Shown here: in pieces, positions 2,258 to 14,581 of the stretch | Layout of the letters: each line of letters opens with the position of its first letter | Numbering within the stretch: the first letter of the stretch is position 1 | Source: Halorubrum alkaliphilum | GTDB taxonomy: Archaea; Halobacteriota; Halobacteria; Halobacteriales; Haloferacaceae | NCBI RefSeq assembly: GCF_017873815.1 | Contig: NZ_JAGGKQ010000005.1 | Coordinates: 124,001 to 188,000 of the forward strand | DNA: 64,000 nt | Direction: 5' to 3' | Translations under genes and position numbers: made by a program | Notes under the pieces: generated by a model | Database searches by the model: none | Told to the model about the DNA's origin: nothing | Seen by the model: the letters and a program-made list of their open reading frames with translations, nothing else

Positions 2258-3178
2258 TCAGTATCGGTTGCGACCCTCGGCAGCGTCCTTCCACTCGCCG
2301 ACGCCGGAGGGGTCGAGATGGACGTGGACGTCGCCGACGCCATCCAGATCACGGAGCCGGGTGACGAGTTCCGTCTCGATGTCGTGTGCTCGGCGGAGCG
2401 TCATCTCGCCGTCGACCTCGACGTGGACCTCCACCTCCAGCTCCGTTCCGTCGTAGAACACCCGAAGGTCGTGGACGCCGACCACCGCGTGGTGGCTCCG
2501 AAGCGCCTCCGTGACCCGGTCGCGGTCGCCATCAGGCGGGGCCGCGCCGACGAGGTACGTCACGTTCTCGCGGGCGATCTGAACGCCCTGATACATGACG
2601 AGGAGGCTCACGACCGCGCCGGCGACGGGATCGAGGATCGGGAGGTCGAGAAACGCGCCGATCACCCCGACCATCGCGGCGAGCGAGGTGTAAATATCGT
2701 TCAGACAGTCGGTCGCGAGCGCGGCGAGCGCGGTCGAGCCGAGGTCGACGTTCACCCGCGTCGTGTACCAGTAGAGGACGTACATATCCGCTATCGCGAA
2801 CAGCAACGCGCCGACGAGGACGGGACTCGCCGAGACTTCGGGGACGCCCAACAGGCCGAGTACGGACTCACGGAGGAGCACCACCCCGAGCAAGAAGATG
2901 ATCGCGCCGACGAACAGTGCGGTCAGCGGCTCGATCCGCTGGTGGCCGTGTGGGTGCTCGGCGTCGGCGTCGTCGTACCGCGATCCGCCCCAGACGAACA
3001 CGACCGCGCTGGCGACGAGGTCGGCGACGGAGTGGGCGGCGTCAGCGAGCAGCGCCACGCTCCCGAACGCGATCCCCGCGGCACCCTCGACGGCGATCTT
3101 CGCGGCGTTGCCGGCAACGTTCACGCCCGCCGCTCGGCGGAACCGCCGCTTTGCTCCGGCGAGCGAGGAACCGCTCAT
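2258..3178 (-). CDS. Cation diffusion facilitator (CDF) transporter
   Basis: 306 residues with about five to six membrane segments and a cytoplasmic C-terminal domain, the layout of CDF proton/metal antiporters that export Zn, Mn, Co or Fe. Metal-site motifs HSVADL in TM2 and DCLNDIYTS in TM5 are present, and a loop with HPHGHQR lies between. The C-terminal part has the CDF dimerisation fold with paired histidines (HHAVVGVHDL). A CTTAAG element at 3203-3208, 27 bases upstream, fits leaderless transcription from this ATG, so a start 22 codons earlier is less likely. Metal specificity is not decided. Confidence 0.9.
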   Translation of the reverse strand: MSGSSLAGAKRRFRRAAGVNVAGNAAKIAVEGAAGIAFGSVALLADAAHSVADLVASAVVFVWGGSRYDDADAEHPHGHQRIEPLTALFVGAIIFLLGVVLLRESVLGLLGVPEVSASPVLVGALLFAIADMYVLYWYTTRVNVDLGSTALAALATDCLNDIYTSLAAMVGVIGAFLDLPILDPVAGAVVSLLVMYQGVQIARENVTYLVGAAPPDGDRDRVTEALRSHHAVVGVHDLRVFYDGTELEVEVHVEVDGEMTLRRAHDIETELVTRLRDLDGVGDVHVHLDPSGVGEWKDAAEGRNRY

Positions 3179-3301: not shown

Positions 3302-3308
3302 TTTATAA
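3302..3308 (+). promoter_or_regulatory. TATA element of the large pilin-like gene
   Basis: TTTATAA lies 26 bases upstream of the ATG at 3331 and supports that start over one at 3289. Confidence 0.55.
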
Positions 3309-3330: not shown

Positions 3331-5475
3331 ATGTTCCGCTGTGAGCGCGCCCAAAGCGAGGTCCTCGGGACCGTCCTTCTTCTCGGGGTGACGATACTAG
3401 TCGTCGGATCCACGGTCGCGCTCGGGTCCGTTGCGCTCACCGACTCTCAGCAGACCGCGGACCTCCAGCGTGTTGAGGGTGCGATGACGCAGTTCGATTC
3501 GAAGGCAAGCCTCGTCGCGCACGGCGAGTCACCCACGAAAATGGTCCAAATGGATGTCGGGCGGACCGCGGACTTCCGGGTCGACGAGGACGCCGGCTGG
3601 ATGCGGATCGAGGTGGAGACCGATGAGGGCGAGAACGACATCAATGAGACGGTCCGCTTCGGCGCGGTCGTATACGAAAGCGGGAGCGAAACCGTCGCGT
3701 ATCAGGGTGGTGGTGTCTGGCGGTCCAACGCGGACGGTTCGTGGATGGTCTCTCCGCCGGAGTTCCATTACCGCGGAAGGGGCGGAACCGAGACGCTCAC
3801 TCTCCCGCTCGTGACGATCGAGGACAGCGGTGGTCCGCTCGCAGACACGGTACGGATTACCGATACCGAGCAACCATCCGAGCGGGTTTTTCCCTCGAAA
3901 AGCGGTTCGAATCCGCTTCTCGGCGGGAACGTGACCATCACTGTCGAAAGCGACTACGCTGAGGCGTGGGGCCGATTTTTTGAATCGCGAACGGATGCTA
4001 GCGTAGAGTCACTTGACGGGAACCGCACCCGGATTCGGCTCCCTACCGAGATCGAGTCGTCCCAAGTAACTCAGTCGCTATTCGGACTCAACACTGGTAG
4101 CGGGTTCAATGAGCAAACGTTGATGGAAGACATCAACTCCTTCAACGCGGCATCATACGACTCTCGGGACTACCCACCCTCGGAGGCAACCGGTGACAAC
4201 GTTCGGGTATACGCTGACGGCGGAATCGACGGGGGGGCACCCGGACAGCTCGATGTCGAGCATATCAACATCGGTGGAACCCTATCCGGTTCGGATGTCC
4301 ACCCGTCGACAAGCGCTCTTGAGAGTGCGGCGGATCTCGTTACTGAGGAGGCTGTGGGGACGACCCGCCATGTTGATATGAGCGGCGAAATCACCGACCG
4401 GATCGAGACGTTTCGGTCGACGTTCAACGACCTCAACGAGACTGCCACCGACGGGGATCCGGAGTCATACGAAGACACGGCGTCGTCGATCGAACTCGGA
4501 GCGGGAGAAACGGAAGACCTCGATTCGACGTACGTCGACGGTCCGGTCTCCGTAGAGGGTGGAGAGTTGACCGTCGAGGGGGACTTACACGTTAACGAAA
4601 CGTTGGACCTGAGAGAAGGCGGAAATCTGATCGTCAATGGCGATCTGTATGTCGGCGAGGGACTCGAGGTAGTCAGTTCGACGATGGAAACACACGGTTC
4701 ACTCGCTGTCAACGGAAACGCGGTGTTCGGCGGGGCGACAGATGCGACGCTTCGTGGGGACACGTACGTCAACGAGGCACTCATCGTCAAGGAAGGCTCC
4801 TCGATGACCGTTGAGGGGGAGGGAGTTCGTGCGGTTGAAATAAACGAGGACGTCGAACTGATCGGGTCCAACGACGGAACCGAAATCGTCCTCAACACCG
4901 GAGAGAGGGGAGACGAGTTCCACCTGCTGGCGGACGGAGACGTGCTCATAGGCTCAGAAGGCGGGTCCGGTACACTCCGCGTCGCTGGCAACGGCATCGC
5001 GTATCTCCACGGCACTGGCGACGTACTCGTCGAATCGAACGGGGCACCTGCCGGTGTCAACGTCGTGGACGAGGCTACCGCTCAGTGGTATCATGACGGA
5101 TCCGTGTTCGAAATTAAAGCGAACGACCACGATGCCGTTCTCGAGTCCGACGCAGCACGGAACCATCCCGGCGGCGGACTCTGGTTGTTCAGTACCGCGG
5201 ATACGGTACACCTCAAGGGCAACGCGGAGGATGGATCCACGGCCTACGTCAACGGAGTTGTTCATGCAAACGGAGTGGTACTCAATGACGAGACACGGAT
5301 CGATGGCGCGCTCTCAGCCAATGACGTACGGTTCATCGATGCCGATGTCACGCTGAACCACGACGAGGCGATCGAGGATTACGATCCGTTCGTCGATAGG
5401 ACGATACCCACCGTCAACCACCTCCATGTGTCCGTTCACGGCATAGATGTGGGTGGGGAAAGGAGCGACGACTGA
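3331..5475 (+). CDS. Large pilin-like protein with beta-helix-like C-terminal region
   Basis: 714 residues. The N-terminus has the prepilin pattern: short charged leader, RAQSEVLG, then a hydrophobic run to about residue 36, suggesting PibD-type processing before Q. Residues 40-235 resemble the facing 267-residue protein (5494-6297), including NVTITVESDYAEAWGRFF against its NVTLTHEASPRADAWEQYY, so the two look paralogous (DUF7289 by memory). From about residue 390 the chain becomes short repeats of VEGGELTVEGDLHV and GGNLIVNGDLYV type, like a bactofilin or beta-helix fibre. I infer an extracellular or surface role with the adjacent pilus machinery, possibly as adhesin or minor pilin. It is on the opposite strand and may be regulated separately. 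Confidence 0.75.
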   Translation: MFRCERAQSEVLGTVLLLGVTILVVGSTVALGSVALTDSQQTADLQRVEGAMTQFDSKASLVAHGESPTKMVQMDVGRTADFRVDEDAGWMRIEVETDEGENDINETVRFGAVVYESGSETVAYQGGGVWRSNADGSWMVSPPEFHYRGRGGTETLTLPLVTIEDSGGPLADTVRITDTEQPSERVFPSKSGSNPLLGGNVTITVESDYAEAWGRFFESRTDASVESLDGNRTRIRLPTEIESSQVTQSLFGLNTGSGFNEQTLMEDINSFNAASYDSRDYPPSEATGDNVRVYADGGIDGGAPGQLDVEHINIGGTLSGSDVHPSTSALESAADLVTEEAVGTTRHVDMSGEITDRIETFRSTFNDLNETATDGDPESYEDTASSIELGAGETEDLDSTYVDGPVSVEGGELTVEGDLHVNETLDLREGGNLIVNGDLYVGEGLEVVSSTMETHGSLAVNGNAVFGGATDATLRGDTYVNEALIVKEGSSMTVEGEGVRAVEINEDVELIGSNDGTEIVLNTGERGDEFHLLADGDVLIGSEGGSGTLRVAGNGIAYLHGTGDVLVESNGAPAGVNVVDEATAQWYHDGSVFEIKANDHDAVLESDAARNHPGGGLWLFSTADTVHLKGNAEDGSTAYVNGVVHANGVVLNDETRIDGALSANDVRFIDADVTLNHDEAIEDYDPFVDRTIPTVNHLHVSVHGIDVGGERSDD

Positions 5476-5493
5476 TGATGCCCCAACGATCGC

Positions 5494-6297
5494 TCAGTCG
5501 CCGAGCGTGGTTCTTATCTCGGTCGTGTGAATAATAACTCGCTCGTCTACAGTGATCGTCACCGAGACCGTGTCTTCATCGCACTCGACGGAGGCAGCGT
5601 CTTCATCACACCCAACAGCGATCCGGTCCGGATACTCCGCCGACAAGTCCTCATAATACTGCTCCCAAGCATCGGCGCGTGGGGACGCCTCGTGAGTCAA
5701 GGTCACGTTTTCGCCGTCAGCAACGATCATTTCGCGATTGTGACGCTCACTGACGAGCAGTACAGTTCGGTCGCCTCCAGCCAGTCTGGACGTACCGGAT
5801 GCCGCCCGCACGTCAACGATCGAAAACACGGTTGTTTCACCGACTAGTAAGTCAGGCTCGTTCACCATGACCGCGTTTGAGCCATCACTCCGGAAGACAG
5901 CCCCGTTCTCGTACACGACCTTCGTGTTGCCAGCCCCTGAGTACTCTATCGGCCGAGATGGAAGGCTCAATACGCTCGACTCGGTGCCGTCAACCGTCGC
6001 TCGGAGGCGAACAGGATCGCTGAGCTCGATCGACCCGCCCGCGAGCCGGACCTCGGTCGCCCGGCTTGGTACGCCGTCTCGACTGATGTCGTTGAGGTTG
6101 TCGTGGAGGACATCAAACGCCCGCTCGACGTTGTTGTCGCGCTCGGCGAGCTGCGCGTCCTCCAATCCGCCGAGACCGACTGTGAACGTAACGGCGATCG
6201 TTGACGTGATCAGCGCGAACACCAACACGAATCCGACGACCTCGCTGACGCCGCGGTCGGCCGCGAGCAACCCTTGAGAGCAGTTCACATCCGTCAT
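5494..6297 (-). CDS. Pilin-like protein (DUF7289-type)
   Basis: 267 residues. After a short leader, DRGVSEVVG precedes a hydrophobic segment of about 20 residues, matching a prepilin processing site (G before V). The remainder is a secreted beta-rich domain with two cysteines near residue 230 and 238 (GCDEDAASVEC). It is the last gene of the minus-strand pilus operon and its start overlaps the preceding stop by 4 bases (ATGA). Likely a minor pilin or pseudopilin; family number recalled from memory. Confidence 0.72.
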   Translation of the reverse strand: MTDVNCSQGLLAADRGVSEVVGFVLVFALITSTIAVTFTVGLGGLEDAQLAERDNNVERAFDVLHDNLNDISRDGVPSRATEVRLAGGSIELSDPVRLRATVDGTESSVLSLPSRPIEYSGAGNTKVVYENGAVFRSDGSNAVMVNEPDLLVGETTVFSIVDVRAASGTSRLAGGDRTVLLVSERHNREMIVADGENVTLTHEASPRADAWEQYYEDLSAEYPDRIAVGCDEDAASVECDEDTVSVTITVDERVIIHTTEIRTTLGD

Positions 6298-6785
6298 GCT
6301 TCGCTCACCACCACTTCGCCGCCGCTGTCCAATCCCGGATCCGGCACCCAGTGTATCCGTAGATCTCCACCGGTGAGCGTCGCGTTCCGGATTTTGGTGT
6401 CCGAACGCGCGCGGAACGGAACCTCGACGGTCGCGTCCGCCCGGTCGCTCTCCAGGGTGACGGTCCCTTCGGTCCCGGCGGTGGTTACAGTGACCCGGTA
6501 ACCGGCTCCCGACACCCGATCGGGGAGTGAGACGGGACGGACGACCGTGAGATCCGCAGGTGATTCGGCGGTCCCCGCGAGCCTTTCGACGGTCATCAGG
6601 TCGGCGGCCACGCGCTCGCCGACGACGGTGAGTTCACCTTGGGCAGCACGCTCACGCTCGGTGTCAACGAACGAGCCGCCCGCGATGAACAGTCCCGAGA
6701 GCAACAGCGTTGAGACCGCGAGCATCAGGACGTAGCCGACGGTAACCGACACCGCGCGCTCGTCGCCGCGGGAGGGATCACGCAT
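6294..6785 (-). CDS. Pilin-like protein (DUF7266-type)
   Basis: 163 residues. RAVSVTVGYVLMLAVSTLLL is a prepilin-like N-terminus; the rest is a small beta-rich domain. The ATG at 6785 overlaps the upstream stop by 8 bases, which fits translational coupling and is preferred over an in-frame ATG six codons earlier. Predicted minor pseudopilin of the PilB-PilC locus. Confidence 0.7.
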   Translation of the reverse strand: MRDPSRGDERAVSVTVGYVLMLAVSTLLLSGLFIAGGSFVDTERERAAQGELTVVGERVAADLMTVERLAGTAESPADLTVVRPVSLPDRVSGAGYRVTVTTAGTEGTVTLESDRADATVEVPFRARSDTKIRNATLTGGDLRIHWVPDPGLDSGGEVVVSEA

Positions 6786-7782
6786 CGTTCTCACCCGGTG
6801 CAACTCGGACTACGTCCCTGTACTCCAGTTCGGGCGTGCGATGATGGACCTCCACGTCGGCGCTGTAGACGGCGTCAACGACGTACGGCTGTGCGGTACG
6901 GTCTGCGGGGGTAGTCCCGTACGGCTCGTTCGGATCGGCGCTCGGGTCGTCCATCTCGTCCACGACGAAGTGGTAGGTGCCGGCCGCCGCGTCGCCGTTC
7001 TCGTAACGGATCTCGTAGCTTTCGGCTCCGTTCTGTACGTTCTCGGCCCACACGAGCTCTTTCCACTCGTTGCCCGCGACCGTGCCGCCAGTCACGTCGA
7101 TCGTATAGCTGCCGTCCTCCGAGCCGTCGAACGACTCGGATTCCAGAGTCTCGGTTCCGTTGTCGACGGTCACCTCAATACCGTCGCCACTGGCGTTCCC
7201 GGACACCGACATCGACCAGGTCGCCCCGGAGCGGTTCGCGACCACGGTAAACGGTTCCTCATCGAGTGACCGCTCGTTCACGGTCAGCTGGTAGTTCCGC
7301 GTCCGAGTGACGGTAGTCGCGAGGGTCCAGTCGGAGGTTCCGCTCTCGTTGGTCATGGCTCGGTAGCCACCATCGGCGAGCTCGTCCTGCGCAATGAAGT
7401 GGCCGGTCTCGTTAGTCACCGCACTCACGTCGGCGATCACACCATCACGAAGCCGAAGATCGCCCGTAGCGTCACTGTATACGGACATGGTCGCGTTGAA
7501 ATCGTCTCCGACGCCATCGGAACCGCTCTCGGTGCGGTGTTCTCGCTCCATGATCGCGGCCACGTCCTCGACGGTCCCGTCGCGGAAGTCGACCGCTTCG
7601 GCTCCCCCGGCGTCAACGCCGCGAGTCGCGAGGTTCTCGGTATAGATGACGGTGTTCAACAGCAGCACGACCGCCACGAGGATCACCGCGAGCGTTAGCC
7701 CGGTGATCAGGATCATCTGTGCCCGGTCCTCGTCGGGTTCGGGGTCGGACCCGCGGACGCGAGGGGGTTTCACATCTGCCAT
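6778..7782 (-). CDS. Pilin-like protein (DUF7261-type)
   Basis: 334 residues. About 20 residues of charged leader precede DRAQMILITGLTLAVILVAV, a prepilin-like processing site and H-domain. A long extracellular region follows, rich in Thr, Asp and Gly with several NxT/S sequons (for example NETG, NESG, NRSG) that could be N-glycosylated. It overlaps both neighbours in the operon. Function in pilus assembly is inferred from context. Confidence 0.7.
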   Translation of the reverse strand: MADVKPPRVRGSDPEPDEDRAQMILITGLTLAVILVAVVLLLNTVIYTENLATRGVDAGGAEAVDFRDGTVEDVAAIMEREHRTESGSDGVGDDFNATMSVYSDATGDLRLRDGVIADVSAVTNETGHFIAQDELADGGYRAMTNESGTSDWTLATTVTRTRNYQLTVNERSLDEEPFTVVANRSGATWSMSVSGNASGDGIEVTVDNGTETLESESFDGSEDGSYTIDVTGGTVAGNEWKELVWAENVQNGAESYEIRYENGDAAAGTYHFVVDEMDDPSADPNEPYGTTPADRTAQPYVVDAVYSADVEVHHRTPELEYRDVVRVAPGENDA

Positions 7783-8399
7783 GCGGTGATGCGCACCTCC
7801 ACGACCGTGTACAGCGTGTCGCTCCCGCCGACCGGGTCGGCGAAGTAGTCATGTTCGTTCTCCTCGTCGAGTCGCGGCCCGGAGTACACCGGATCGTTCG
7901 GATCGTCGGCGCTGGGGTTGAACAGTCGATCGTCACCGTAGAGTGCTACACGCTTGCTGGCGGTCGCCGCGTTGTCGCTGGGAGTGCCCATGTCGACCAG
8001 TCTTTCTCGCCCGGTGCTGCCGTCCCCGTCGGGGTGGTAAACCTCGATGTTGAACGCGATCCGCCTGTCGTCGAACGCTTCTCTCAACGGGTCGTGTAGC
8101 GGATGTGATTCCGTCATCAACCCAGCGTACGTTCCGTCGTTGTCGGCGTCGACGAATCCGTTGTCGTAATAGCGGAGCGCACGGGACAAGTCGCCACGAT
8201 GTCCGGCCGTTTCCAGCACGTCCTGAGCCGCGATCGCCGCTTGGTTCTCGACGTGCTGGTTCGAAGTGCTTGCGGACAGCGGGGTCACTGCCGTTGCCTG
8301 TGTTGCGAAAACGATCCCGGCGACGAGAAGGAGTGCGGCGGCGAACGCCTCCAATGTGTGCGCTTGCCCGCGATCGTCGGGGAAGTGTTCGACGAACAT
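7770..8399 (-). CDS. Pilin-like protein (DUF7288-type)
   Basis: 209 residues. DDRGQAHTLEAFAAALLLVAG forms the prepilin-type leader and hydrophobic segment. The ATG at 8399 lies one base after the upstream stop; a longer reading frame exists but its extra part is arginine/serine-rich and is the shadow of the neighbouring gene. The 3' end overlaps the next gene by 13 bases. Predicted minor pilin. Confidence 0.72.
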   Translation of the reverse strand: MFVEHFPDDRGQAHTLEAFAAALLLVAGIVFATQATAVTPLSASTSNQHVENQAAIAAQDVLETAGHRGDLSRALRYYDNGFVDADNDGTYAGLMTESHPLHDPLREAFDDRRIAFNIEVYHPDGDGSTGRERLVDMGTPSDNAATASKRVALYGDDRLFNPSADDPNDPVYSGPRLDEENEHDYFADPVGGSDTLYTVVEVRITAWQM

Positions 8400-8400
8400 C

Positions 8401-8928
8401 TCACCACACCCGCAGCGTGAGCCGGTACGTTTCCCCGTTGATGTCGACGATACGACTCGCGGCCGAGACGCTCTCGCTTCGGGACGGAGTGGGGCCGGCG
8501 TGCATCCGGACGTCTTCTTCGCCGACCGTTCCGACGACTCCGCTTTGCGTGACCGTGAGATTGAGTCCGCGGAACTCATCGATCCCGAGTTCGACGTGGA
8601 GCTCCTCGGCGTTCGATTCCCAGTTACAGTCCCACTCGGACGCCGCCCTCTCACCGTCCGTTCCGTTGAAGAACGCGTGCGTACAGACCGGCGACAGCGT
8701 CGCGGTCGACCCCGGGCCGGCAAGAGAGGACTCCACCAACTGTGCGGTACCGCGCTCTGCGACGATGACCGTCGCGCCGTCCCCGACGGCGTACGGCTCC
8801 AAGAGGGTCGGTACGAACGCAAACGTGAACCCGACGACGACGAGGAACACCGACATCCCGACGACGAAATCGAGGACGGTCTGTGCGCGACCGTCGGTCG
8901 TGAAGGCTCCAGTATGCTCACCCGACAT
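8401..8928 (-). CDS. Pilin-like protein (DUF7287-type)
   Basis: 175 residues. RAQTVLDFVVGMSVFLVVVG near residue 14-33 is a prepilin-like N-terminus. The body contains two cysteines (VCTHAF and WDCNW) that could form a disulfide outside the cell. The start overlaps the pilC stop by 11 bases, so it is the first pilin-like gene behind the assembly machinery. Confidence 0.72.
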   Translation of the reverse strand: MSGEHTGAFTTDGRAQTVLDFVVGMSVFLVVVGFTFAFVPTLLEPYAVGDGATVIVAERGTAQLVESSLAGPGSTATLSPVCTHAFFNGTDGERAASEWDCNWESNAEELHVELGIDEFRGLNLTVTQSGVVGTVGEEDVRMHAGPTPSRSESVSAASRIVDINGETYRLTLRVW

Positions 8929-10963
8929 AGATCCACACCCCCAGTGCCAGCGTCATCAGGACGACCGCGAACTTCACGCCCGAGAGGACCGTCGCGTTCC
9001 GGATGTACCCGCTGATGAACCCGGAGAGGACGGCCTGTATCGTCACCGCGTGGAAGAACAGCATCGAGAGCACTTCGGGTTCCATGCCACCCCCACCGAA
9101 GTCCGGGCCGCCGCCCCCGACGGCGTCAGCCGAGTTCCCGTCGGCCTGTGAGGAGAGGTCGCCCATCACGTCGATGAACTGCGTCTGGAGGATGGCCATG
9201 ACGCCGAGAAGCGTGACGTACGTCATGAGGATGATCGCTACCTGCATCCGCGTCCGGGAGCGTCGTTCCCGCTCGATGTCGTCCTGGTTCTCCGAGGCCT
9301 GTGCCGCCGTCGTCAACACGTCCGTGATCTGGGAGGAGGCCTCCTGTGCCTCGGAGATGAGTTTCACCGTTCGAGCGAGCCGGGGGACCGCGTACTCGTT
9401 GTTGAACTCGACGAGTGCGTCCCGGAGGCTCATGCCATAGTTCACCTTGGCGTGGATGATATCGAACTCCTCGGCGAGCTTTCCCGATGAGGTCTCAGCG
9501 ACGGTACGGATCGATTCCAACAGCGTCTGTCCGGTGTCGTTCGCCGAGGAGAGCTTTCGAAGGTTCTCCGAGAGTTTGCCCGTGACGGCCTGTTTGGACC
9601 GTTGTCCCCACTCGTGGAACACGGCAAGGGGGATCAGCGTCACGTACGCCGGCACGTACACCCAGATGAACGCGGACCACACTGGACGGTCGACCCAGCC
9701 GTCGAACGTTGTCGGCGCGGACCCGGACGCGACCGCGACGGCGATGAGCGCCAGCGCGGCCGGCACGGTCATCGCGAGCGTGAAAAGCGGGTTGTCACGC
9801 AGGAAGTGGTGTGGAGCGGCGAGGATCCGCTTCGTCTTGTGGGTCCCCTCACGCTCCCGGATCCGGTCGAAGATCCCGCTGCGGCCGACGAACCCCTCGA
9901 TCAGGCCGAGATGGAGCAGTCCCTCCCGGCTGGTCTGTTGGAGCCGTTCGCTGCCGCCGTCGGGACGCAGATAGCCGTCCCCCGGCTCGTCCTGTTTGAC
10001 GGTTGAGACGAGCACCAAGAAGCCCAGCCCAGTCAGCGGAATGAGGAGGTACACCGTGGCGTATAACAGGACGTCGTCGGACTCGCCCATCATCCCCATG
10101 ATCACGAGGATGACGATGAGGAGGAGCGGGAACAGCGAGAGCGTCATGTACATCTCGCCGAACAGCTCCAACGTCTCCAGCGTCATCTCGCGCTCCTGTT
10201 TCGAGGTGCGCATGTGTTTGTCCTTTTTGTCCTTTAGGAACGATTCCATGTCTCCCCCGGAGTTGACAATGGAGAGCATGTCGGCGAGGAACTGTGAGAG
10301 CTCGTCGGAGGGCGTCTCCATCGACTGCTGGCGGAGCGCGTTCCGATAGTCGGTTCCGAAGTACTCCGTCTCGTTGATCACGCTCTGGAACTCCTTCGAC
10401 ACCTCTCCGTAGGTGTCCTCGGCGGTCGCCATCGCCCGAAGGATCTCCAGTTGATTGAGGCCGCCGACCGAGAGCGCGTACATGAACGAGACGGAGTCGG
10501 CGAGCAGCAGGTTGATCTCCCGCTCGCGGGCCGACGACCGGGAGTACGGGAGCGCGATCAGCGTCCCGAACCCCAGCGCGAACCCGATCGATCCGAAGAC
10601 GAGTCCGCTGATGAACACCGCCGCCGGGACCACGAGCGACCGCAATAGCTCCGTCGCTGCCGGGCTCGGCGACGGGACCCCGAGCGACAGCGTCTCGGGA
10701 GCGATCAGACCGAGCGCGAACACGCCGTACCCAAGGAGCGTCCCGACCACCCAGAGCACGACGCCGAGAAGCACGCCGACGCCGAGCGACCGGGACACGT
10801 ACATCTCGACCGGGTCCGTCATCCGCGCCTCGGCAAGCTTCTGCTCCACGTTCCCGACGAAATCGCCATCGGGATCGAACAGGAGTCCGAAGACCGGGTA
10901 GAACAGTCGACCGAGGAGGTCGTCATCAACCCGTCCGCGTCCGAGACCGGTATCGAGACTCAT
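8918..10963 (-). CDS. pilC: PilC/TadC-type platform protein (T2SSF family)
   Basis: 681 residues of an inner-membrane platform protein that couples the assembly ATPase to pilin insertion. Two T2SSF modules are visible: the first around residues 130-310 (with NLLLADSVSFMYALSVGGLN), the second around 440-600 (NLRKLSSANDTGQTLLESI). Each is followed by membrane helices, and the C-terminus is hydrophobic. The double-module length is usual for haloarchaeal PilC. It follows pilB by 27 bases. Whether the locus makes an adhesion pilus or another filament cannot be decided here. Confidence 0.9.
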   Translation of the reverse strand: MSLDTGLGRGRVDDDLLGRLFYPVFGLLFDPDGDFVGNVEQKLAEARMTDPVEMYVSRSLGVGVLLGVVLWVVGTLLGYGVFALGLIAPETLSLGVPSPSPAATELLRSLVVPAAVFISGLVFGSIGFALGFGTLIALPYSRSSAREREINLLLADSVSFMYALSVGGLNQLEILRAMATAEDTYGEVSKEFQSVINETEYFGTDYRNALRQQSMETPSDELSQFLADMLSIVNSGGDMESFLKDKKDKHMRTSKQEREMTLETLELFGEMYMTLSLFPLLLIVILVIMGMMGESDDVLLYATVYLLIPLTGLGFLVLVSTVKQDEPGDGYLRPDGGSERLQQTSREGLLHLGLIEGFVGRSGIFDRIREREGTHKTKRILAAPHHFLRDNPLFTLAMTVPAALALIAVAVASGSAPTTFDGWVDRPVWSAFIWVYVPAYVTLIPLAVFHEWGQRSKQAVTGKLSENLRKLSSANDTGQTLLESIRTVAETSSGKLAEEFDIIHAKVNYGMSLRDALVEFNNEYAVPRLARTVKLISEAQEASSQITDVLTTAAQASENQDDIERERRSRTRMQVAIILMTYVTLLGVMAILQTQFIDVMGDLSSQADGNSADAVGGGGPDFGGGGMEPEVLSMLFFHAVTIQAVLSGFISGYIRNATVLSGVKFAVVLMTLALGVWIYVG

Positions 10964-10990: not shown

Positions 10991-13900
10991 TCAGCCCTCC
11001 TCCTCGGCGGGTTCGACGGTCTCGAACCCCCACTCGTCGATGTCGCCATTCGCGTCGGCCGCATCCGAACCCTCCGCGTCGGCCGCATCCGAACCCTCCG
11101 CGTCGTCGTCCGTGTCCGCTGCGTCCTCCCCGTCCTCCACGGCTTCCGTACTCACCGCGCCGTCCGAACTCGTCGCGCCCTCCACGGATCCGGTATCGAC
11201 TGCGTCGTCGTCGTCGCCACGGCTCTCCTCCGTCGGTGGCGGACTCATGACGTCGACTCCCTCGGGGAACGGCTCGTCGAACGATTCGTCTATTTCCAGC
11301 GTTCCGCTCTCGCCGTTCGTCGAGGTCTGGGACCGGTCGATTCCCTCACCCGCCGAGACGGCCGATTCGTCACCCGTCGCGATCGATGCTTCAGCATCTC
11401 CGGATCGGTCGGGTCCGTCGACGACGCTGTGGCCGGTGTCGCCGACGGTATCCTCCGATCCGGACCCCGCGTCGTCACTGACGATCCGGTCGGTCAGCCG
11501 GTCCGCTGTCCGGGCCGCCTCGGCGAGCGAGTCATGGGCGGCGTTCGGGCGGGCCTCGACGTCTCGGGCCGGATCGACGTCGAGGAGCGCGTCAGCGACC
11601 GATTCCGGCACCGAGCCGCGGTACTCGCCGAGTAGATCCTCGGCGTCCTCGAGGATTCCCTTCGCCTCCTCGCGTCCGGCCTCGTCCGGCTCGGGACGAG
11701 GCACCATCGCCTCCTTTTCACGGTCCACGTTGATGAGGACGGACTCCATCTCGCGGAGGTCCTCGAGCGAGCGCTCCAACTCGTCGTTGGCCATCAGCGC
11801 CAGCACCGTTTCCGGATCGTTGATGAACGCCTGGAACGTCGCCGCCACCTGCGCGTAGCTGTTGAGCCCCCGGTCGATGAGGTACGCCAACACGAGTCGT
11901 CGCTTTCGGAGTTCCTCGTCCAGCGTCGCCCGACTCCAACCGCGGTCGAACATGATCTCTTCGAGCGTGTTCGAGTCCCCCATTCGGAGGAACTCGTCCG
12001 TCTCCGCCTGCCACTGGAAGACGTCTTGAACGTTGATCTCGTCGTTCTCGGCGTCGTAGTGGTTGATCTCCGTGAGCGACTTGTTCCGGCGCACCTTCTT
12101 GCCCTGTACCCGGGTCGACGTCTGGATCGAGACGAGATCCAGCGCGGAGAACATCGTCTTCGAGACGTTGATCGGGTCCGTGGTGAACCGCTTGAGTACC
12201 TCGCCGACTGAGTCGGCGTGGAACGTCGTGTACGTGGTGTGGCCCGTCGACATGACCTGAAACGCGGTGCGGCCCTCCTCGCCACGGATCTCGCCCATCA
12301 CGATGTAGTCCGGGCGCTGGCGGAGCGCGGCTTCGAGCAGGTCGAACTCGTCGACGTCGCCCTTGTCGTCGTCGGAGAAGGACGGACGAGTGACCGACGC
12401 GATCCAGTTGCGCTGGGGAAGTTCGACCTCGCGAGTGTCCTCGATCGAGACGATCTTCGCGTTCGAGGGGATGAAAAGCGAGACCGCGTTCAGGCTCGTC
12501 GTCTTCCCGGAGGCGGTCCCGCCGGCGAAGATCAGGTTCTTATTGTTCTCGATACAGATCCACAAAAAGGCCATCTCGTCGAGCGAGAAGGTCTTCCAAT
12601 TTATGAGGTCGACCGGCGTGAACGGGACGTCCTTGAACTGGCGGATCGTGTAGTTCGTCCCGTGGTCCGACACCTCTCTCCCGAGCGTGAGCTGGGCACG
12701 TGAGCCGTCCGGGAGGGTCGCGTCGACCTGTGGGCGTCGTTTCGAGATCCCCTTACCGGATCGCTGGGCGAGTTTGACGACGAAGTCGTCCAGCTCGTCC
12801 GTACCGTGGTAGACGTTCGTGATGACCTGTTCGTAGTCGGAGTGGTAGACGAACACCGGCGAATCGTAGCCGTCACAGGAGATGTCCTCGACGTTGATGT
12901 CGTGTTTGATCGGGTCGATCCGCTCGTACCCGATGAAGTCGCGTTTGAGGTAGTACAACAGCTTCTCCACTTGGTACCCGGACAGCGTCTCCGCGTCCTC
13001 GGCCAACACGGCCGGTTCGGGACGCGCACTGATCCGGGAGGTCCGCTCGGCCCGTTGGCTCGGGGGCCGGTAGCCGATCGTCTCGGCGATCCGTCGCGGG
13101 AGTCCGTCCGAGAGGTCGACTCCGAGGCCGTCCAGGTCGATCCGGTCCAGGAGATCGGTAAGGGGCCCCTCGTCGTCCCCCTCGTAGAGATCGTATCGTT
13201 CGAGGAGCGTCCGCGTCTCGTCGGCGATGACTCCCTCACGAAAGCCCTCCCCCTCCCCGGTGATCGACTCGTCCGCGTACTTGATCGAGGTCCGGAGCTT
13301 CCCCGTGAGGAACTCCGCCAGGTCCGACTCGATGCTGGTCAGGTACGGCTGGACCACGTAATACTTCACCTCGTTCTCCTTCGTCGATCGGAACACGATC
13401 ACGAACGCGTAGGGTTCGTTCACCCAGTAGCGCTCCACCTCGCGGAAGTGCGTCTTCTTCGCCATCGGAACCGCCTTCTCCAGATCGTACCGGTTTGCGA
13501 GGGTGGTCTCTCCGTCGACCGTTGAAAAGAACGCGTCCTCGTCGAGTTCCGGATTCACGTCGACCGTCCGCTCGTCGACGAGGTCCGCCAGCCGGTCCGC
13601 GGTCTCCGCGCCCGCGTCCAACACGCTCTCGATGCCGCCGGGGTCGAAACCCAGCGCGTCGATCTTGTGCTCGTGGGTGAACGGTATCGGTTCGTCCTCC
13701 TCGTCGGTCGGGAGGGTACCCTCCTCGTCGCGATACCACTGGTCCTCGAAGTCGCTCCACGTGTAGTACCCCTTGAGAACCGGGACCTCGTAGAGGTCGT
13801 ATCGAGCGTGACCCCGGTCCCATAGCTCGTCGCCGACCGCGACGGTGGCCCGGAGCCTGAATCCGAGCTCATCCGGGTGGAATCCGAGGAACTCCGCGGG

Positions 13901-14560
13901 ATCGACGGCGACTCGCTCCCAGTCGAGATCCGTCGGTGGGCCGGCGGGAACCGGTTCCACGTCCGCGCCGGCGACGACGACAAGACCGGAGACGCCGTTT
14001 CTGCCGACCGCCTCTCCCACACCGTGCTCGTCGGGAGGGTCCGGCTCCCCGGCCTCGTTCGTGTCCGTCGTTTCGCTCCGTCCGCCGACACGGTCGTCCG
14101 TATCGTCACGGGACACGGTAGTCCCCCGCGTTTCGTCGACGCTCCGTCGGCGGTCCTCGTACACCGCGGACCCGCTTGCGACGACGTCGTCGCTCCCGAT
14201 CACGAGCGTGCCGGCAGCCGGGGTTCCGTGCCCGTCGACGGGCGTTTCGCCGTCCGTTTCGAAGGGCTGGTCGACCCCCGACACGCGAACGACTGCCGTG
14301 TCGCGGTCATCGACCCGGGCTTTCACCGCGCTCGCCGGCACCGCCGGAGCCTCGGGGATCCACTCGTACAGTTCCTCCGCGGCGTCGACGTGTCCGTGCT
14401 CCCGGAGAACGGATCGCCAAGTGTACCGTCCGACCGTAACCGGCGGGTCGACATCGGCAGGGGCGGAATCGCCCTCCGCAGTGTCGGTCCGCGCGGAATC
14501 GGACACCAGTCGCTCTCTCCCGTCCGTAGCGGGCTGGCGCTCGGCGTCCTCGCCGTCCAT
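10991..14560 (-). CDS. pilB: PilB/TadA-type secretion ATPase with extended acidic ends
   Basis: 1189 residues, long for the family (cores run about 500-600). The ATPase core lies roughly at residues 400-880, with Walker A GGTASGKT near 680, the Asp/His-box region and Walker B region IVMGEIRGEEGRTAFQ. It powers pilin assembly from the cytoplasmic face with PilC. The N-terminal 250 residues are variable and acidic; the C-terminal 180 residues are extremely acidic, low-complexity, and contain a duplicated EGSDAADA unit. Start 14560 is supported by a CTTTTTACG element at 14582-14590, 26 bases upstream. It is the first gene of the minus-strand pilus operon. Confidence 0.9.
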   Translation of the reverse strand: MDGEDAERQPATDGRERLVSDSARTDTAEGDSAPADVDPPVTVGRYTWRSVLREHGHVDAAEELYEWIPEAPAVPASAVKARVDDRDTAVVRVSGVDQPFETDGETPVDGHGTPAAGTLVIGSDDVVASGSAVYEDRRRSVDETRGTTVSRDDTDDRVGGRSETTDTNEAGEPDPPDEHGVGEAVGRNGVSGLVVVAGADVEPVPAGPPTDLDWERVAVDPAEFLGFHPDELGFRLRATVAVGDELWDRGHARYDLYEVPVLKGYYTWSDFEDQWYRDEEGTLPTDEEDEPIPFTHEHKIDALGFDPGGIESVLDAGAETADRLADLVDERTVDVNPELDEDAFFSTVDGETTLANRYDLEKAVPMAKKTHFREVERYWVNEPYAFVIVFRSTKENEVKYYVVQPYLTSIESDLAEFLTGKLRTSIKYADESITGEGEGFREGVIADETRTLLERYDLYEGDDEGPLTDLLDRIDLDGLGVDLSDGLPRRIAETIGYRPPSQRAERTSRISARPEPAVLAEDAETLSGYQVEKLLYYLKRDFIGYERIDPIKHDINVEDISCDGYDSPVFVYHSDYEQVITNVYHGTDELDDFVVKLAQRSGKGISKRRPQVDATLPDGSRAQLTLGREVSDHGTNYTIRQFKDVPFTPVDLINWKTFSLDEMAFLWICIENNKNLIFAGGTASGKTTSLNAVSLFIPSNAKIVSIEDTREVELPQRNWIASVTRPSFSDDDKGDVDEFDLLEAALRQRPDYIVMGEIRGEEGRTAFQVMSTGHTTYTTFHADSVGEVLKRFTTDPINVSKTMFSALDLVSIQTSTRVQGKKVRRNKSLTEINHYDAENDEINVQDVFQWQAETDEFLRMGDSNTLEEIMFDRGWSRATLDEELRKRRLVLAYLIDRGLNSYAQVAATFQAFINDPETVLALMANDELERSLEDLREMESVLINVDREKEAMVPRPEPDEAGREEAKGILEDAEDLLGEYRGSVPESVADALLDVDPARDVEARPNAAHDSLAEAARTADRLTDRIVSDDAGSGSEDTVGDTGHSVVDGPDRSGDAEASIATGDESAVSAGEGIDRSQTSTNGESGTLEIDESFDEPFPEGVDVMSPPPTEESRGDDDDAVDTGSVEGATSSDGAVSTEAVEDGEDAADTDDDAEGSDAADAEGSDAADANGDIDEWGFETVEPAEEEG
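11052..11099. repeat. Tandem 24-bp duplication inside pilB
   Basis: Two exact head-to-tail 24-bp copies (11052-11075 and 11076-11099), in frame, encoding the repeated eight-residue acidic unit EGSDAADA in the disordered C-tail. Typical replication-slippage repeat; its copy number may vary among strains. Confidence 0.8.
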
Positions 14561-14581
14561 AGCGGATGTCAGCCTACATCG

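Follow-up and report, generated by a model that had tools for sequence, protein, structure and literature searches.

Why would a haloarchaeon carry two sister pilin-like proteins of very unequal size, encoded tail to tail beside a pilus assembly operon, and what might the larger of the two be for? Archaeal pili are familiar as filaments; the components that they present at their tips are, to our knowledge, hardly known. The question is raised by two genes, here called A and B, in a stretch of 64,000 nucleotides from Halorubrum alkaliphilum (the window; positions 124,001 to 188,000 of contig NZ_JAGGKQ010000005.1, with all features numbered from its first letter).

Gene A (3331-5475, forward strand) encodes the large sister pilin of 714 amino acids, and gene B (5494-6297, reverse strand) a short DUF7289 protein of 267 amino acids, a candidate minor pilin, with a stop-to-stop gap of 18 bases (5476-5493) between them. 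The sizes, positions, tail-to-tail facing and gap given in a first-pass annotation of this DNA were all correct. Its view of A and B as paralogues with prepilin N-termini and a common domain is likewise borne out, since BLAST aligns them at E 1e-6 (identities 52/224, spanning A residues 1-218) and both match DUF7289 (PF23960; Pfam cut-off 27 bits), A with 100 bits over residues 6-229 and B with 173.4 bits over residues 15-261. Both N-termini fit what we take to be the archaeal prepilin pattern, with ERA/QSEV in A (RAQS at 6) and DRG/VSEV in B (RGVS at 15), and both combine a class III signal motif with a hydrophobic segment, as is expected of type IV pilins. The NCBIfam archaellin/pilin N-terminus model scores A at 17.0 bits, under its cut-off of 20. 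Upstream of A, a TATA-like box read in the sequence (TTTATAA, 3302-3308, forward strand), presumably part of its promoter, is centred 26 bases before the ATG at 3331, a spacing that fits a leaderless transcript starting at this codon. A cation-efflux transporter gene (2258-3178, reverse strand) lies outside the conserved block, with a match in none of 13 Halorubrum loci in the stretch compared.

Gene B stands at the end of an operon in the order PilB, PilC, DUF7287, DUF7288, DUF7261, DUF7266, B. The annotation had linked the pair to PilB-PilC, and B indeed closes this operon while A adjoins B. On the reverse strand throughout, the operon comprises a PilB-type ATPase that is extended at both termini and whose start codon is uncertain (10991-14566; T2SSE 108.6 bits, PilB3_C 40.4 bits, and PilB3_N 23.2 bits, under the Pfam cut-off of 27) and a PilC-type membrane platform (8918-10963; 102.1 bits in Pfam, two T2SSF stretches). 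Between PilC and B are four small proteins, all with prepilin-like N-termini and Pfam matches, namely DUF7287 (8401-8928; 145.3 bits, RAQT motif), DUF7288 (7770-8411; 194.9 bits, RGQA motif), DUF7261 (6778-7782; 36.1 bits, RAQM motif) and DUF7266 (6294-6788; 83.8 bits, RAVS motif), the last of which overlaps B by 4 bases.

A long repeat region is present in A and not in B, as the annotation had also said. The structure predictions that it suggested gave AlphaFold2 models of A (64 sequences; pLDDT 86.4, pTM 0.78) and B (68 sequences; pLDDT 90.3, pTM 0.81) with the same order of predicted elements up to the penultimate strand, comprising a long N-terminal helix (10-63 in A, 10-74 in B), a beta head, a helix near 210-221, a short strand and the penultimate strand itself (232-238 in A, 244-248 in B). 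In the B model the last strand (253-266) follows directly, whereas in the A model about 450 residues intervene before a single last strand at 695-709 (pLDDT 94 for block 701-710), folded mostly as a beta-helix with one long helix (351-372). Gene A can accordingly be divided on the forward strand into 3331-4044 (residues 1-238), with the prepilin N-terminus and DUF7289 to the penultimate strand (PF23960, AlphaFold2); 4045-5400 (residues 239-690), with a beta-helix module of divergent DUF7305 type (AlphaFold2, VIA-align and an insert profile, see below); and 5401-5475 (residues 691-714 and the stop codon), with the terminal strand and the family end ...LHVS....

The models and two sequence tests together favour placing the beta-helix of A within the pilin head, as an insert ahead of its last strand. 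By eye, an end ...LHVS/T... is common to 87 of 89 long-protein tails. When the last 14 columns of the short family served as a profile, the true C-terminus came top in 51 of the 89 long proteins and within the top three in 76, compared with first place in 25 of 324 members of five control families; the true C-terminus was not the best window in 38 of the 89, and wider profiles discriminate less. Moreover, the profile-profile score of the long proteins' pilin part against the short family rose from 179.7 to 185.2 when the real C-terminal block was added, the best of 20 internal control blocks reaching 181.5. Element order and both tests point to a solenoid between the penultimate and last strands of A, the layout of the bacterial pilin ComZ (see below). 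The annotation had described the beta-helix as an extension, a description that we replace by insertion before the last strand; an extension at the end of the protein is less likely given the models and these tests. A separate feature, which B shares with some of the short proteins (alignment A4, from which 4 of 71, L126, L140, L164 and L179, were left out), is a cysteine pair before the last strands, where a disulphide is possible; such a pair is unusual in an exported haloarchaeal protein.

What kind of beta-helix this is was addressed by structural and profile comparisons. Neither model had a Foldseek match in the PDB at E<=0.001. With VIA-align, A residues 370-686 matched beta-helical proteins, including the HMW1 secretion domain (Z 19.4), tapirin 6n2c (Z 18.9), EtpA (Z 17.8), ice-binding protein 6eio (Z 13.9) and, 20th among many beta-helices, ComZ 6qvi (Z 13.3, rmsd 3.9, 233 residues aligned). 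For B, none of 994 chains compared in the same way matched at Z>=5, a result that does not establish a new fold. Searches of PDB sequences with alignment profiles were similarly sparse, with 4 weak matches (best E 0.017) for the relatives of A (alignment A3, from which 1 of 64 profile hits, L140, was left out for its odd end) and 3 matches at E 0.8 or worse for the short proteins (A4).

Pfam DUF7305 (PF23981) is matched by 63 of the 64 members of alignment A3, that is, by all except A, for which there is no match at E<=1 for the whole protein or at E<=10 for the insert. A profile built from the inserts of those 63 relatives nevertheless scores 68.6 bits on the A insert (best of 200 shuffles 10.6), and one built from 42 inserts without Halorubrum scores 23.0 (versus 6.1), suggesting that the A insert is a divergent DUF7305-type beta-helix although not a Pfam member. 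Across 196 genomes sampled from the phylum, DUF7305 has a match at E<=0.001 in 24 and above the cut-off in 19, of which 18 belong to the window's own order; the count in control genomes is 0 of 14. The repeat region had originally been likened to bactofilin or beta-helix fibres, and here the beta-helix part stands (AlphaFold2, VIA-align) while the bactofilin part fails for A. Bactofilin (PF04519) matches neither A nor its insert in Pfam, on which ground a bactofilin identity is rejected for A, and is found at E<=0.001 in 3 of the 64 members of alignment A3; a putative ice-binding-like adhesive domain (PF20597) is found in 2 of them.

The association of a long with a short DUF7289 protein extends well beyond the window. 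In a sample of 148 genomes of the family, 140 have DUF7289 and 133 have DUF7288; Haloferax volcanii, a haloarchaeon amenable to genetics, has both. A survey covered 61 loci, 60 fetched by the position of DUF7288 plus the window. Long and short DUF7289 genes lie tail to tail in 41 of the 61, the long gene being convergent on the operon in 37 and the roles swapped in 4. The remaining 20 loci comprise 4 with both genes in tandem within the operon, 2 with a long gene only, 10 with a short gene only, 1 with a frame-broken long gene, 1 with two short genes, and 2 that are cut or incomplete. The gap between convergent genes has a median of 36 bases when 42 pairs are counted, among them the frame-broken one, so the 18 bases in the window fall within the usual range. 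Furthermore, a full-length long gene was found elsewhere in all six tested genomes that lack one beside the operon. The tail-to-tail order itself is not essential, as shown by five Halorubrum species with the long gene away from the operon, the 2 long-only loci and the 4 tandem ones.

The same arrangement is seen in Halorussus, Haladaptatus, Haloarcula, Natronomonas, Halorientalis and others, and a tree of the pilin parts separates 31 long and 27 short proteins from five haloarchaeal families into two groups at 100/100 (this tree, of 58 rows, and one of 67 rows used for insert types were built from hand-picked subsets). That the larger protein had gained its repeat region, if read as a recent event, is therefore ruled out by tree and synteny, the long/short split being old and the pair conserved over many genera.

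Some loci depart from this pattern in their own ways. In Haloarcula and near relatives (L135, L139, L146, L152, L155, L156, L162, L164, L165, L169 and L174), two long genes in tandem face the short one. In Halobellus captivus (L137), the long and short proteins both group with Halorubrum aquaticum and not with other Halobellus, so that the locus may have been transferred as a unit or the genome mislabelled; the other Halobellus loci have swapped roles, with a DUF7308 insert in the one that was typed (L160). The frame-broken long gene (L066, genome G135) has a frame shift inside its insert, the remainder continuing with the usual end in another frame. A scan of 2,000 bases showed no homopolymer of 6 or more, and a sequencing error, a pseudogene or switching would each fit. 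In another locus (L064, genome G129), DUF7288 is split over two reading frames, and a contig end is nearby.

While the pair is old, the insert is variable. Among 47 long proteins from the family (alignment A1, from which 3 of 50 candidates were left out: L066 for its frame break, L100 as truncated, and the operon DUF7289 of L087), 30 carry DUF7305, 12 DUF7308, 2 VWA and 3, including A, no Pfam insert. Among 25 named long proteins beyond the reach of A's insert profile, DUF7308 is found in 14, DUF7305 in 10 and VWA in 1; the two genome sets overlap in species, so these counts are not additive. The DxSxS metal-site motif is kept in all three VWA inserts. On the 67-row tree of pilin parts, DUF7308 needs 3 changes and DUF7305 needs 5, with at least 2 and at least 4 forced by well-supported branches; VWA forms one group, and all type labels together need 6 changes where the minimum possible is 4. 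This indicates that the insert changed on a kept scaffold, or that whole genes were replaced, more than once, two histories that the tree cannot separate. The insert is also the fastest-diverging part of the locus. Across the 13 Halorubrum loci, identity is 87% for the PilB core, 81% for PilC, 63% for the pilin part of A and 51% for B; the insert, found in 12 of the 13, has 29% identity over 46% of its length.

It is established for pili that PibD processes the prepilins, that their N-terminal helix anchors them in the membrane, and that PilB and PilC then drive them into a filament whose tip is made first. Against this background, our preferred reading, which we hold with moderate confidence, is that A and B are minor pilins of the neighbouring PilB-PilC filament and that A is its tip protein, with a ligand-binding beta-helix insert. 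Its computed foundations are the shared pilin domain, the position of the insert, the old pairing, the change of insert type and the fast divergence of the insert. PibD would trim both proteins, which would then enter the filament through their N-terminal helices, A being assembled first with B as its partner and so coming to lie at or near the pilus tip, a position suggested by an insert of about 450 residues that is too bulky for the inside of a helical filament. There, the beta-helix may bind a surface, a sugar or other cells, and lineages could change ligand by changing the insert. The annotation had envisaged a filament with an adhesive or polymer-forming tip. A special tip survives as the best reading; polymer formation does not, having nothing in its favour beyond the beta-helix shape and the weak matches of 3 of 64 relatives to bactofilin. 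Attachment would be the likeliest use of A, because an apparently related locus of Halobacterium salinarum, pil-2, is induced in attached cells, pilB2 being 8.5-fold up (PMC4292770).

We also consider, tentatively and at rather less than even chances, that the one site before the last strand has repeatedly accepted a beta-helix, DUF7308 or VWA, and that lineages thereby change what their pilus recognises. Should such an exchangeable tip cassette exist, the surfaces, mating partners or viruses recognised would differ by insert, while scaffold, short partner and PilB-PilC operon stay constant.

Part of this evidence could be accommodated by other readings. A might be an initiator of assembly resembling GspK or PilK, its bulky insert merely capping the filament and any ligand binding being secondary. 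GspK has an inserted domain, the pairing with B and the operon are constant, and a full-length long copy persists even when relocated, but a purely structural cap should neither change its domain type nor out-diverge all of its neighbours, and we consider this role unlikely. Alternatively, A may be a membrane-anchored surface protein that employs a prepilin leader outside any filament, as its place on the strand opposite the operon, its own TATA-like box and the distance of the long gene from the operon in some species would allow. We give this only a slim chance, given that the pilin head of A is a clear paralogue of B and that the pair is kept over many genera.

Two further readings concern the beta-helix itself. 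In Thermus thermophilus ComZ, a large beta-solenoid lies between the penultimate and last pilin strands, and a partner pilin gene adjoins (PMC6561018). A has the same layout, and ComZ is among the structural matches of its insert (Z 13.3), so A could be a nucleic-acid receptor whose beta-helix captures extracellular DNA at the tip or bridges mating cells, with B as a PilA2-like partner. In ComZ, two lysines bind DNA. However, the A insert is very acidic (89 acidic versus 17 basic of 452 residues), and replacement by VWA or DUF7308 in relatives is more in keeping with a change of protein or sugar ligand; we find this receptor quite improbable. A carbohydrate-active, lyase-like beta-helix or a bactofilin-like polymer on a pilin anchor is very unlikely indeed. 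Polysaccharide lyases do occur in the lower rows of the VIA-align ranking and Bactofilin in 3 of 64 relatives, but secretion domains, adhesins and ice-binding proteins rank above the lyases, and Pfam assigns A to no lyase or bactofilin family at E<=1.

The preferred reading, A as a tip protein partnered by B, can be set beside known archaeal systems. DUF7289 probably equals arCOG02911, a proposed minor pilin of PilB3/PilB4 systems that is duplication-prone and varies in length from about 250 to 550 amino acids (PMC4858521); neither an insert ahead of the last strand nor a conserved long/short pair nor exchangeable modules are mentioned in the available portion of that account. The H. salinarum pil-2 operon is restricted to haloarchaea and has seven co-transcribed genes including prepilins (PMC4292770), and PilB4-C4 of Haloferax is linked to two relatively large pilins (PMC4371748). 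Both loci appear orthologous to the window operon, judging from gene number, order and type, and a beta-helix insert is absent from the available portions of either account. In open-licence literature, no mention of DUF7289 or DUF7305 was found, and arCOG02911 and HVO_1160 were found in PMC4858521 only. Searches of the same literature turned up no account in which an archaeal pilin has a module inserted ahead of its last strand, long and short forms occur as a conserved pair, or insert types are exchanged.

Bacterial modular pilins, in contrast, are well described. Their census relied on the N-terminal signature IPR012902 and covered bacteria, as far as the available text shows (PMC8179133). 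ComZ has the same layout as A, differing in its bacterial pseudopilin fold and in lacking the strong acidity of the A insert, while a change of insert type is seen in the family of A. The likeness is one of fold and layout and does not imply kinship, given the Foldseek result and the 20th place of ComZ among beta-helices; the profile of A's alignment likewise found no ComZ among PDB sequences at E<=1. For ComZ, too, a bulky solenoid has been used as an argument against a place inside the filament (PMC6561018). Similarly, Streptococcus sanguinis PilB is a minor pilin with a grafted module argued to fit only at the tip, a vWA domain with a metal site (PMC8179133). The grafted module is alike in the family of A, where the vWA metal-site motif occurs in three relatives; PilB is bacterial, and a short loop connects its module with the pilin part (PMC8179133). 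Ice-binding proteins and tapirins share the beta-helix fold with the A insert and have no pilin part, and A lacks a match to ice-binding family domains, PF20597 being confined to the 2 of 64 relatives noted above. As in modular pilins, a pilin part is combined with a domain that is not pilus-specific (VWA in relatives, the beta-helix in A). We see in A and its relatives an archaeal counterpart, probably reached by convergence, to bacterial ComZ and the modular vWA pilins. A would then be a concrete candidate for a tip module that comes with both a partner pilin and an operon for its assembly, found in many haloarchaea and following one rule, insertion before the last strand, so that archaeal pilus-tip function becomes testable through gene removal and module exchange.
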